A DNA stretch of 64,000 bases, from positions 7,014,102 to 7,078,101 of the forward strand of contig NC_136013.1 in assembly GCF_048128805.1 (NCBI RefSeq), given 5' to 3'. Positions 42,701 through 48,563 of this stretch are shown one piece after another. Under the pieces are notes generated by a model that was not told where the DNA came from, made no database searches, and saw nothing but the letters and a program-made list of their open reading frames with translations. A program made the position numbers and the translations under genes. This DNA comes from Centroberyx gerrardi (taxonomy: Eukaryota; Chordata; Actinopteri; Beryciformes; Berycidae). How positions within the stretch are numbered: the first letter of the stretch is position 1; every line of letters begins with the position of its first letter.

Positions 42701-43247
42701 ATAAAAAAAATAATTATAATAAAATAACTTTAAACTCATAAAATACAATGATAATCAATTTCATGACATGAGGAAAGACATCTTTACGAATTTACTACAA
42801 CCGCGTTCTGGACTTAAACCAAGGATCTTCTTGGTTTACATGGTAAGTTGGTGTTTCTTCATTTCTGTTATATATTTCTACCTAGTATCATCTTTGAATT
42901 CTCAAAATGCATAGTTTTTCTTTCTTACCTTTTGCTATATCTTTGTTTCAGTAATTTCAACTATATTTACATCTAAATTGACTTACATAGAGAGCAACAG
43001 TAGGGTGGGCTACAGTATGTGGCTTAGAGGCGGTATTGCTAAACATCTGTGTTTCTGTCCTTCCAGCCGTCCAGACACCAGCCTTCTGTGGTTCCTCACT
43101 CCCTTCAAAGCCATAAAACATTTGATCTGCAACCAGTACAAGTGGCTGGCCATCAAGATTGTCACCGTTCTGCTACTGCTGGCCATCGTGGCTCTTTTCC
43201 TCTACAGCATGCCTGGTTACATGGTGAAGAAAATGATGGGTGCTTGA
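24706..43247 (+). CDS. otof: Otoferlin, apparently lacking C2A; 41 coding exons to the first terminal exon
   Basis: Calcium sensor of ferlin type for synaptic vesicle fusion in hair cells. The 5388 coding bases give 1795 residues (human about 1997). Exons: 24706-24751, 25413-25539, 25748-25802, 25926-26057, 26205-26267, 26381-26465, 26567-26726, 27008-27194, 27489-27675, 28087-28310, 28702-28810, 29529-29709, 30145-30265, 30476-30576, 30682-30772, 30868-30984, 31118-31270, 31420-31609, 31973-32097, 32321-32455, 33569-33730, 33841-33960, 34369-34530, 34714-34876, 35391-35464, 35676-35702, 35821-35952, 36066-36138, 37389-37504, 37749-37886, 38149-38286, 38519-38646, 38844-39014, 39309-39469, 39976-40118, 40224-40312, 40551-40649, 40850-41091, 41456-41634, 42107-42207, 43067-43247. 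Domains, rough residues: C2B 77-190 ([10 protein letters not shown], weak in Asp), C2C 240-370 ([11 protein letters not shown]), FerB 665-720, C2D 776-900 (DQDTVGKADFMG), C2-like 957-1090, Lys/acidic linker 1100-1210, C2E 1250-1420 ([24 protein letters not shown]), C2F 1530-1700 ([12 protein letters not shown]), anchor 1757-1785. The two zebrafish co-orthologues are not distinguished. Confidence 0.96.
25862..25921. repeat. (AATC)n/(ATTC)n microsatellite
   Basis: About 14 tetranucleotide units changing from AATC to ATTC, ending at the acceptor of otoferlin exon 4 (25926); the ATTC part serves as its pyrimidine tract. Confidence 0.9.
32456..33568. other. Otoferlin intron 20, no recognised feature
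   Basis: Long intron with T runs near 33256 and 33404. No further in-frame exon was found. Confidence 0.6.
36600..36628 (+). other. otof: Possible alternative exon with early stop in otoferlin
   Basis: A strong acceptor (TTGTTCTCTTCTGCAG) ends at 36599. Joined in phase to exon 28 (ending 36138), it would add V-Q-S-E-P-M-Q-V-S and a TAG at 36626-36628. The product would end in the linker before C2E and lack C2E, C2F and the membrane anchor. No AATAAA follows within the intron, so it could be a nonsense-decay exon or simply a cryptic site. Confidence 0.35.
39590..39660 (+). mobile_element. Fragment of a tRNA-derived SINE (3' tail)
   Basis: CACTCTGGATAAGAGCATCA followed by GCTAAATACCCAAAATGTAAATG matches the widespread teleost SINE tail (GGATAAGAGC.TC.GCTAAAT). 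It lies in otoferlin intron 34, just after exon 34. Confidence 0.6.
42451..42549. repeat. (CA)n microsatellite, about 99 bp
   Basis: Nearly pure CA tract with a few interruptions, in the intron before the first terminal exon of otoferlin. CA repeats near splice sites are known hnRNP L binding sites; a role here is untested. Confidence 0.95.
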
Positions 43248-43526
43248 GAAGATGCTCGGACACCTACGCAGAAGCTTCCAGCGATTTCACTAACCGGATT
43301 GACTTCTAGTTAGATTTTCCCTACCTCCGCTCCCCCCATCTATAGTCCCTCTTCAATCATACCCTTTTTAAAACCAAAAAAAGCAACAAACTTGTGGATT
43401 TAAGTAGACGAGGAGTCATACCATGAACCATAGAGATAAAAAAAGCAGTCAGATTTTCAGATAGTCTCAAATAACTATCAGGTGTTTAAAGTGTCACTTG
43501 CCTATTTGTTGCATCTTTACAGACTA

Positions 43527-43632
43527 TGTAACCCAAACCCAGACCTTAGCCTAACCCAAAAACCTAAACCCAACCTTACCTTGACCCTATTTCTAACCCT
43601 AACCCCAACTCTAACATTAGCCCTAACCCAGA
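43527..43632. repeat. Degenerate telomere-like CTAACCC repeats
   Basis: About 100 bases in which variants of CTAACCC/CTAACCCT recur (TAACCCAAACCC, CTAACCCTAACCCC, CCCTAACCC). It lies about 280 bases after the stop of otoferlin terminal exon 1, within its presumed 3' UTR. Confidence 0.75.
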
Positions 43633-44094
43633 CATTGGATATCTGTAGACTGCTTTGTGCCCTTTTGTGTTACCTGAAACTCAGTAGGCTTCTTAGTGAC
43701 ACATTATGGTCACTTGACTGTAAGCTGAGTATCAGCATTGGACAATCCAAATGAAGTGTGACCAGAAAGCCTACTCTATTGACTAGTCTCCGGTAGGCTT
43801 TCAAAGTCATGACAACACCATGGCAAATGAACGCAATCTTTTATTCATGATAAAATTCACTACCAGTGTAGGGTGTTATGGTAACATCTCCATCTCTGTA
43901 TTTGTCAGTGGCAAAGATATTGGGATAGTGATTGACAATTTTTGCTGTCTTTTGGTCAAATTGACATTACAGACCAAATGATGAGTACACATTTACAGTG
44001 CAGAATGTCATGTTTGCACACATGTGAAACAATATTTGAAAAATTACATTCATAGTCTCCAGTCCCCTAGTTTCAGTTTAGCATAAGGGTTTGT

Positions 44095-45025
44095 ACAAAT
44101 TTGGGTCAGGTGTTTTCAATGACCATATTTCAACATGTTTCATATTCTGAAGATAAAGGTTTTGTTTCTGGTTGCCAGTAGATTCAGATTTTTGAGCTAT
44201 AAAATGCACACCAAGCTGGAGGTGAGAGAGCTTTCCATAACTGGAAAGCAAGGCATTGTGAGGATGAAAAACAAAGAAAATCTCTGAAGGAAACAACTAC
44301 TGGAGGAGTAAGCAGTCATCCAACCTCAACCTGTCCAAGAAAGACAACAGTGACCGATAACGGAAAAATCATAAGGGTTGTGAAGAAAAACTCAAGAACA
44401 TTGGTTCCAGAGATGACACCTAATCTCCAAAGAACAGGGGGTCAAAATATCCCAAGATACTTGGTGAAGGACAGAATTAAAGAGCCAACTCTTCCAGATG
44501 ATAACCTCTCATCAGCACCGGGAACAAGGGTCAAATTGGAAATTGTCAAAAAAAAAAAAAGTACAAAACTGGTCTTGATGAGTTCTGGAAGCTTGTTTTA
44601 TGGCCAGGTGAGACAAACGTTATTGCAATGATGGAAAGATGAAAGTGCGGAAGAAGAGGAAGATTCACAAGATCCTAAGTATACTACTTGATATGTTACG
44701 CATGGTGGAGGGATTGTAATGGGTCTTTATTGATGAGTTAACTGGTGATGGCTACAACAGATGAATGCCCAGAAAAGATCCCCAAACTGCATTATGCAAC
44801 AAGACATCCCGTCCCCAAACATACTACTAATTTAACCATGGAGTTCATCAAGAGGAGGAACCTTTTTCAATCAGTCGAATTTAAGTCTCACTGAGTGTAC
44901 ATTTCACTTGATCAAGAGGAAACCAAGGCAAGAAAACCAACACGCTCCAATTGAAAGAGGCTGCAGCAAAGGCTTGACACCGAATCTCAAAGGAACCAAC
45001 TATCTGATCTCACCATCCCTGTAGT
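44095..45025 (+). mobile_element. Degenerate Tc1/mariner-type DNA transposon
   Basis: Plus-strand remnants of a teleost Tc1-like transposase gene in order: TCCATAACTGGAAAGCAAGG, GACAACAGTGACCGATAACG, ATCATAAGGGTTGTGAAGAA, ATGCAACAAGACATCCCGTC then CCCAAACATACT (the QQD.DPKHT motif), and a 3' part CATTTCACTTGATCAAGAGG. The coding frame is broken many times and the relic is clearly old. It sits between otoferlin terminal exon 1 and the AATAAA at 45216, so it seems to have inserted into that 3' UTR. Ends are approximate. Confidence 0.8.
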
Positions 45026-46937: not shown

Positions 46938-47709
46938 GTCATTGTGGAATAATAAACATGCACCACCACATTGCAACAATGTCTTTAGAGGATAAGTATG
47001 CCAATTGTCGACCTATATGTAATTTGTCTCTTACATACCTGTAGTACTTGGACCGACAGAGAATGACTCCTGCGTCAGCTGTCCGTTGAAACGGCGAGCT
47101 CCGTTGCCTCTTGCTACTAACAATGAGGCCAAATGGGGTTTGTCAAAATCTCTCCAAAAAAGCCAGTCTGTGAAAACGATATGGCGACCAACCGACGTAT
47201 TTCTATCCACAGTCTGGAAAGCAGCAGCATCGCACTATTTCCACCCAGTGGATAGTCTTCTACCAAACTCTACCCGTCTCCATGTGCAATTATTTACAAT
47301 CTGACCTGACGGTCCGCAAAACTCGATCAAGGCGGCAGTAACGCACTTTCTCCCCACAGCAGACTGTGCTGCGGCAAAGAAAAATAGTTCTGTGATTTCC
47401 TGATTAGTCAAAGTGTGCGTAATGGTGGAATTGTGTCATGTTTACTCTCAACTCCCCTGTGGAGCCTACAAACGTCTTTTTTGGAGATATTTTGACATAC
47501 CCCATTTGGACTCATTGTTAGCAGCAAGAGGCCTTCCACTGGAGCTCACCGTTTCCACCAACAGCTGAATCTGGAGTCAATATTGTCTGTGGGTCCAAGT
47601 ACTACAGGTATGTATGAGACAAATTACATATAAGTTTAAAATCACTGTACTTATCCTTTAAATACATTGTTGCAATGTGGTGGTGCATATTTTGTTATTC
47701 CACAATGAC
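46938..47709. mobile_element. Fold-back (long inverted repeat) element, 772 bp
   Basis: The left arm (about 46938-47163) and right arm (about 47476-47709) are diverged reverse complements over about 230 bases; for example GTCATTGTGGAATAA and CACCACCACATTGCAACAAT on the left are matched inverted at 47662-47709. A loop of about 310 bases separates them. No transposase was seen. It is inserted in the 3' region of otoferlin terminal exon 3, before the AATAAA at 47861. Confidence 0.8.
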
Positions 47710-47860
47710 AATTCTTATTTTTTTCTTGCTTGAGTTTCTTTTTTCTTTTTGTCAAGATAATGACTGTTAACGTTTGTGCTGATTTATTGTGACTGTTTTA
47801 CACAAGTAATAATATTTCTTGGTCAACAGTGTGCAGTAAGTGTATGACTTGGAATTTGTG

Positions 47861-47866
47861 AATAAA
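47861..47866 (+). promoter_or_regulatory. otof: Poly(A) signal after otoferlin terminal exon 3
   Basis: AATAAA in the context GGAATTTGTGAATAAACTGA, preceded by TTTCTTGGTCAACAG as at 45216. The fold-back element has pushed it about 1.2 kb away from its stop codon. Confidence 0.7.
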
Positions 47867-48382
47867 CTGACAACAACCAACTTCTCTAATCATGTGTGTC
47901 ATCTGTCTGTTCATGCACACACCAGTGTTACAGTAGAAACAGTAGACCTCTCCAGTGTTGCTCAGCGGACACAGGGTTCATGTCTATGGGGCTACCGACC
48001 ATTTGGAAAAAGTGATACCTACTCTTAGAAAATGATCCCACGAGATTTAAAAAAATTACAGTATGTTTAAAAGGATAGTGGATAACTCTATTCCTTTGTT
48101 CAACAAAGCAAAAACACAATAATTAACTCTTTTTTTTTTGCTTAAACACATGGTATTTTGAAATTGAACTCTTTGTGTATCATAAATATTACATCACTAG
48201 GGATATCAAACTCGATGGGGTGTAATTTGACTAGGTTGTTTCAACATTTGGTAATACTATACATCTACACACTGTTAATACTGTACATCTTCATCAAACC
48301 CTTGGATTTACAGTATGAATTTGTATTGTCGCCTGGCTTTGGCACTGTCTAACCGCCTGTTTATTTATCTGTGCTCCTCCAG

Positions 48383-48563
48383 CCGTCCAGACATCGCCCT
48401 CCTCTGGTTCCTCATTCCCTTCAAAGCTGCAAAACACCTGCTGTGCGACCAGTACAGGTGGCTGGTCATCAAGATCGTCCTGGTCCTCCTCATGTTGGCC
48501 ATGCTGGGGTTGTTCATCTACAGCGCACCGGGATACATGGTGAAGAAGATGCTGGGGGCCTGA
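48383..48563 (+). CDS. otof: Otoferlin alternative terminal exon 4 (membrane anchor)
   Basis: Acceptor GTGCTCCTCCAG at 48382, same phase, 60 residues, ending TGA. RPDIALLWFLIPFKAAKHLL, core IVLVLLMLAMLGLFIY, then [13 protein letters not shown]. It is closest to exon 3. Reading frame and splice acceptor are intact, which argues for selection after duplication. Confidence 0.85.

Follow-up and report, generated by a model that had tools for sequence, protein, structure and literature searches.

We examined a 64,000-nucleotide stretch of the Centroberyx gerrardi genome (contig NC_136013.1, positions 7,014,102 to 7,078,101; hereafter the window, in whose numbering coordinates are given) and identified an otoferlin gene with four homologous terminal exons in tandem. 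To judge from its sequence, the gene is the teleost paralogue otofb, and the cluster of terminal exons is real, looks functional and is of a kind shared by some other fish. We consider it likely (about 70%) that the cluster consists of self-contained, mutually exclusive terminal exons, which would be chosen by competition between 3' splice sites and polyadenylation [poly(A)] sites. Proteins that differ in their anchor are probably produced from this gene.

The four exons are located on the + strand at 43067..43247 (copy 1, type A anchor), 45355..45535 (copy 2, type B by its place in the tail tree, with a mixed nucleotide make-up), 46495..46675 (copy 3, type B) and 48383..48563 (copy 4, type B); the types are defined below. 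Each exon is 181 nt long, is directly preceded by CAG, starts with the letters CCGTCCAGACA, supplies the third base of the codon begun as AA at the shared upstream donor (AA + C, encoding Asn) and then encodes 60 residues followed by its own stop codon (TGA, TAA, TGA and TGA, respectively). Homologous exons thus stand in tandem in one phase, each with its own stop, and no stop or frameshift is present within the four frames. An earlier note made from the letters of this stretch had given the coordinates, the CAG acceptor, the common phase and the length of 60 residues plus stop exactly, and its statement that frameshifts and premature stops are absent was borne out by the frame check. Its common ending PGYMVKK(M/L)(M/L)GA holds in general form; the exact ends are MMGA (copies 1 and 2) and MLGA (copies 3 and 4), and copy 4 reads YSAPGYM. 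The copies form a single 195-nt repeat family, in which identity to the reference copy is 78%, 83% and 90% for the three others. Tested behind one and the same stretch of 93 body residues, all four tails match the Pfam family Ferlin_C (PF16165; E-values 4.4e-32 to 1.3e-33, 111.6-116.6 bits, cut-off 29.4), and each contains a single transmembrane anchor with a 19-residue hydrophobic core (mean hydropathy 2.6-3.0). The otoferlin residue Ile1967, which has been linked to deafness (PMC10394277), corresponds by hand count to tail position 30. Because Ile is found at this position in all four copies, as well as in 85 of the 94 tails compared, one constraint seems to apply to all the copies. A fifth copy was found neither in the window by tblastn nor in otofb among the best candidates scored in a search of the assembly.

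The gene body, from the first matched codon to the shared donor, spans 24706..42207 (+ strand) according to an exon model and a protein match; the model joins 38 exons (25409-42207) without an internal stop. The protein read from the window is identical to the otoferlin-like isoform X1 of Centroberyx gerrardi at 1750 of 1751 aligned residues, the 29 gap positions in this comparison being short stretches omitted from the exon model. Isoform X1 is the sole protein record of the species that was visible and terminates in the copy 1 tail; its cluster has nine members, of which only the isoform X1 tail was seen. Several close matches in other teleosts are named Otoferlin b in the protein search. 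In a structure search with the part of the body adjoining the tails, the best solved relative was otoferlin (9qe2, query residues 1-92), a match that covers the adjoining body only, as the chain of 9qe2 stops before the tail. The identification as otoferlin in the earlier note is thus kept, with the correction that the gene is the teleost paralogue otofb and not the direct counterpart of mammalian OTOF. The shared donor at 42207 (AA/GTATGG, the slash marking the exon end) scores 6.6, compared to 3.2-11.7 for the donors of the body. No C2A exon was found within the window, and this otofb, to judge also from the start of the matched record (window 24600-25540), seems to lack C2A. Two otofb introns apparently have GC donors, at 25539 (GCGAGT) and 30265 (GCAAGT).

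The sequences flanking the copies carry the signals expected of self-contained terminal exons. On a scoring matrix built on the remaining 37 otofb acceptors, to which the four copies did not contribute, the acceptors of copies 1-4 reach 9.0, 9.6, 9.3 and 9.8, inside the range of those 37 (0.9-17.6). CTAAC branch-point-like sites are located on the + strand upstream of copy 2 (45320..45324, at -35), copy 3 (46459..46463, at -36) and copy 4 (48349..48353, at -34). A separate candidate 3' processing signal (AATAAA, + strand) follows each of the four stops, at 45216..45221 (unit 1), 46100..46105 (unit 2), 47861..47866 (unit 3) and 49181..49186 (unit 4). The first three are embedded in an identical 12-mer, TTTGTGAATAAA (45210-45221, 46094-46105 and 47855-47866), and the candidate signal of unit 4 is not of this shared type. 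TTTGTGAATAAA has three exact occurrences in the 64-kb window, all on the + strand and closing units 1, 2 and 3. Its count alone is weak evidence, as shuffled sequences (one mismatch allowed) average 1.31 occurrences and reach three in 13 of 100 cases; it is the positions of TTTGTGAATAAA, rather than the count, that are the evidence.

Upstream similarity was confirmed for copies 3 and 4 (63 nt at 89%), the pair listed in the earlier note, and was found in addition for copies 2 and 3 (31 nt at 90%); in copies 2-4 it takes in the CTAAC at -34 to -36. The similarity of the 3' ends of copies 1-3 described in that note holds for the identical TTTGTGAATAAA at the unit ends, and the rest of the 3' untranslated region (UTR) similarity is patchy: 70 nt at 74% for units 1 and 3, 25 nt at 92% for units 2 and 3, and nothing else for units 1 and 2 at an E-value of 1e-3. 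Since TTTGTGAATAAA ends units 1-3 and the upstream similarity includes the CTAAC, the duplication appears to have copied acceptor and exon together and, in units 1-3, the 3' end as well. Duplication of exon, acceptor and tail as one unit, as proposed in the earlier note, is therefore retained for the acceptors and the poly(A) ends of units 1-3; what speaks against it is that most 3' UTR sequence cannot be aligned between units and that unit 3 contains an inverted-repeat element.

Intact frames prove little on their own about whether the copies are used. In a neutral simulation that counted stop codons and did not model indels, 24-62% of the copies were still stop-free at 0.09-0.35 substitutions per site, which tells against the proposed reading insofar as it leans on open frames, and the argument that intact frames alone prove use was rejected. 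The case for use rests instead on the ratio of nonsynonymous to synonymous substitutions per site (dN/dS), on protein identity and on conserved columns. Pairwise among the four copies (six pairs), dS is 0.18-0.73, dN 0.077-0.182 and dN/dS 0.22-0.44, and the bootstrap interval of dN/dS lies below 1 in five of the six pairs. Over 0.09-0.35 substitutions per site the mean protein identity to the starting sequence drops from 0.82 to 0.49 in the simulation; the observed identities among the copies are 72-87% (from unspliced frames, with residue 1 counted as a mismatch), and all six pairs exceed the simulated 97.5% point at the nearest distance not above their own dS. Compared with 82 other ear-type tails, in which 24 columns are at least 97% conserved, copies 1-3 depart at none of these columns and copy 4 at one (M49A, a change also present in Scomber scombrus); copies 2, 3 and 4 each have one residue that is unseen in the other tails. 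Selection thus appears to have kept the four copies.

A second otoferlin gene of the same genome differs from otofb in its tails. With the copy 1 tail as query, the assembly (778.9 Mb, 278 contigs) gave at least 10 matches, a lower bound because only the best candidates are scored: the four otofb copies (72-98% identity), two in the second otoferlin gene (68% and 58%), these six being the best, and four at 35-40% that are presumably other ferlins. The second gene (C18, L009), taken for otofa as judged by its tails, carries a brain-type tail (FIWHNYRW) followed approximately 0.8 kb further on by an ear-type tail (LVCNRYKW), in tandem, of 60 residues each and with the frame and length found in otofb. 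No AATAAA or ATTAAA is present between these two tails, and the first such signal lies 874 nt past the stop of the second tail. No brain-type anchor was found in the otofb window: brain-type queries match only the four ear-type exons (47-57% identity), and all other matches in the window have E-values of 0.67 or worse. The four otofb tails agree with an otofa ear-type tail in 39-44 of 60 columns (one a gap), compared to 32-35 of 60 for a brain-type tail. A brain-type anchor beside an ear-type one is therefore found in otofa, not in otofb, and the suggestion that a mammalian pair of last exons was expanded to four was not upheld, as the second gene keeps the pair and otofb has only ear-type anchors. 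In zebrafish, otofa and otofb transcripts are both reviewed as present in inner-ear hair cells, with otofa also in mid-brain and retina and otofb in the lateral line (PMC7140416). An otofb that has lost its brain-type anchor and gained further ear-type ones would fit a hair-cell gene.

More than one tail on the same otofb body was also found in other fish. Labrus bergylta and Scomber scombrus each have two tails on matching otofb bodies (1731 of 1732 residues in both, with one gap in Labrus) that differ at 12 and 13 of 60 tail residues, respectively, and isoforms X1 and X2 of Gymnodraco acuticeps share 1597 of 1597 body residues and differ at 6 of 60 tail residues. In Sphaeramia orbicularis, P0009 and P0125 agree in 537 of 544 body residues (best stretch only) and differ at 11 of 60 tail residues; P0009 and P0124 show 27 mismatches and 108 gaps over 1120. 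In Etheostoma two tails, cut apart by hand, are fused within one partial gene model. No evidence for one locus was drawn from the pairs in Astyanax, Astatotilapia, Cyprinus and Sinocyclocheilus, whose bodies show 35-91 residue differences in addition to gaps; Cyprinus and Sinocyclocheilus are tetraploid. The protein database is clustered at 90%, so that the number of tails per fish is no measure of copy number, and the proteins were taken from the best 120 of 2278 matches in a first search and from 117 and 106 in later ones, giving 211 distinct proteins. Four of 204 public proteins scanned (P0001, P0003, P0004 and P0085) contain two tandem tails fused in one protein, which indicates that automatic annotation mishandles tandem terminal exons.

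A tree of 94 different tails over 60 columns was made under LG+G4 without a mixture model, identical tails being entered once. Proteins without a species entry (mostly otofa by name or length), the over-long tails of Tetraodon and Labeo, and P0002, whose tail is the copy 1 tail, were left out; two of seven proteins new in the last search were added by hand, the tails found fused in Etheostoma, Dallia and Danionella were split manually, and the row names come from a hand-made list. Tail residues 5-6 define group A (25 rows) and group B (27 rows), so that the two groups necessarily differ at these residues. Copies 2-4 fall in a 30-row clade with the B tails (96/92) that excludes copy 1, which is placed weakly among the A tails and in no starred group. 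The nearest rows to copy 2 are two from Gadiformes (89/67), and copy 4 has Lepidogalaxias beside it (99/24), neither placement being starred. A recent expansion in this species only, with the four copies as one clade, was rejected marginally by the AU test (p = 0.030), and copies 2-4 as one clade were not rejected (p = 0.175). With modest support, copy 1 seems to have separated from copies 2-4 before the species arose, and the split is visible in other fish. At 29 diagnostic sites copy 2 resembles copy 1 in 18 and copies 3 and 4 in 8, with 3 like neither, so gene conversion or retained ancestral states may blur its history. The tail of P0080 (Cyprinus carpio) looks as if it combined two types of cyprinid tail, as exchange between copies could produce. 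Besides positions 5 and 6, the majority residues of A and B differ at tail positions 12, 17, 23, 26, 29, 41 and 48. Six of these nine positions precede the hydrophobic core starting at position 28.

In the mechanism that we propose, the donor at 42207 would be joined to one of the four acceptors, and the chosen exon would supply a 60-residue tail anchor and a stop, followed by the AATAAA of that unit. Choice of one exon with its own poly(A) site would exclude the other three, giving four proteins that have all C2 domains in common and differ only in the juxtamembrane part and the transmembrane anchor. Use of the first acceptor and its poly(A) site would close the transcript. Copies 2-4 could be reached only by passing over an upstream acceptor and poly(A) site, so the proximal ends would be the default and the distal ends regulated; splicing and polyadenylation of all four copies, with a regulated choice between them, are what we infer from this arrangement. 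After the teleost gene duplication, otofa most likely kept the pair of brain and ear anchors, whereas otofb most likely shed the brain type and came to vary its ear-type anchor to suit different membranes of hair cells or different kinds of hair cell. Because otoferlin has been described as tail-anchored (PMC10984619), its tail should decide insertion and perhaps address. We offer only tentatively, and with some doubt, the wider proposal that in spiny-rayed fish otofb acts as an anchor switch. Two to four self-contained tail cassettes, of old and diverged A and B types, would provide several membrane addresses to one vesicle-fusion protein, for use in distinct kinds of hair cell (lateral line, saccule, utricle) or in distinct membranes, the brain-type anchor being left to otofa.

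Several further observations weigh against a cluster of four working, self-contained exons. No YTNAY branch site is present within 60 nt upstream of copy 1. The tree has 60 columns for 94 rows and its bootstrap had not settled, so that the tail columns are too few to settle the history of the copies, and the marginal rejection of a four-copy clade concerns a group picked after the tree had been seen. Other observations agree with an alternative in which only copy 1, perhaps together with a single B copy, is used and the rest are recent or fading duplicates, still intact through youth or gene conversion. Copies 3 and 4 are 90.6% identical, and their dN/dS interval of 0.14-1.42 does not exclude neutrality for this pair. 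Same-locus fish show two tails per body, not four, the only visible protein record of the species ends in copy 1, and copy 2 is mixed at the diagnostic sites. In addition, relaxed-looking otofb tails depart at four of the conserved columns in Oreochromis, at three to four in Scophthalmus and at three in Eleginops (P0091, P0086, P0106 and P0118, perhaps decaying copies), which indicates that decay happens and would be visible. In Centroberyx gerrardi, however, acceptor quality is about equal across the four copies, the conserved columns are retained and the dN/dS interval lies below 1 in all pairs but one; YSAPGY of copy 4 is also present in Scomber scombrus, where convergence is possible. We regard use of only one or two copies as unlikely.

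A different arrangement would be a 3' end shared as in mammals, in which the upstream copies carry a stop and the transcript continues past them, directly or by splicing, to a single end downstream of the last copy. Mammalian exon 47 works in this manner (PMC10394277), and a donor-like site scoring 6.2 is located 234 nt past the copy 1 stop. The best donor-like sites past copies 2, 3 and 4 score 4.7, 4.0 and 4.2 (body donors 3.2-11.7); they do not count against a shared end, because the exon-47-like tail of otofa is followed by none better than 4.9, and for the same reason weak donors past the stops were dropped as evidence for separate terminal exons. Against a shared end, which we hold improbable, stands the identical 12-mer with AATAAA that closes units 1-3; in otofa, by contrast, neither AATAAA nor ATTAAA stands between the two tails. 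Tandem repeats are also prone to mis-assembly, but an assembly artefact is scarcely credible here, as 9-23% of bases differ between the copies, each copy has flanks of its own, and tails of both groups are present in other species. Self-contained terminal exons remain the reading that we prefer.

Three repetitive features are located in or near the cluster. A (CA)48 array (42454..42549, + strand; Tandem Repeats Finder) lies within the intron that separates copy 1 from the shared donor, and only one other CA/AC array in the window scores at least 100 (63238-63302). The protein hnRNP L can bind CA arrays, and the (CA)48 array might conceivably be a site for a splicing regulator. An inverted-repeat element (46847..47692, no strand assigned), with arms of 111, 89 and 57 nt that are 84-93% complementary, occupies part of the presumed 3' UTR of unit 3, and the long presumed 3' UTR of unit 1 has, by its look, a possible remnant of an old DNA transposon at 44180-45000. 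Upstream of otofb, reading frames with armadillo repeats are present on the + strand at 2600-9000; two of the four peptides tested match PF00514.

Alternative terminal exons and the two anchors of otoferlin are already known; new are the copy number, the self-contained ends and the contrast between otofa and otofb. In the open-access literature, as far as titles and the starts of abstracts go and with subscription journals mostly outside its scope, no report of tandem otoferlin terminal exons in fish was found. Mammalian OTOF has alternatively spliced 60-residue anchors encoded by exon 47 (brain, TMD2) and the following exon 48 (cochlear, TMD1); exon 47 carries a stop, after which exon 48 is untranslated (PMC10394277). 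The otofb cluster resembles this system in having 60-residue C-terminal anchors at one position of one gene. It differs in that OTOF has one brain-type and one ear-type anchor, whereas otofb has four of the ear type and none of the brain type, and in that exon 48 is untranslated when exon 47 is used, whereas in otofb an AATAAA follows each unit. In the same genome otofa has the mammalian order, an exon-47-like (IWHNYRW) and then an exon-48-like tail, and shares tandem 60-residue anchors with otofb; it differs in its pair of anchor types and in having neither AATAAA nor ATTAAA between them. Tandem duplicated exon substitutions are enriched at the C-terminus (77 of 236 human events), and neither 'OTOF' nor 'otoferlin' occurs in the main text of that study (PMC9741552). 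Cases at the 3' end, such as tropomyosin with three tandem 3' exons, are like otofb in that homologous exons provide alternative C-termini, and otofb differs from them in being a fish paralogue with four copies that each encode a membrane anchor. With four natural anchors of the ear type on an otherwise constant body, the gene would allow the role of the anchor to be tested directly.

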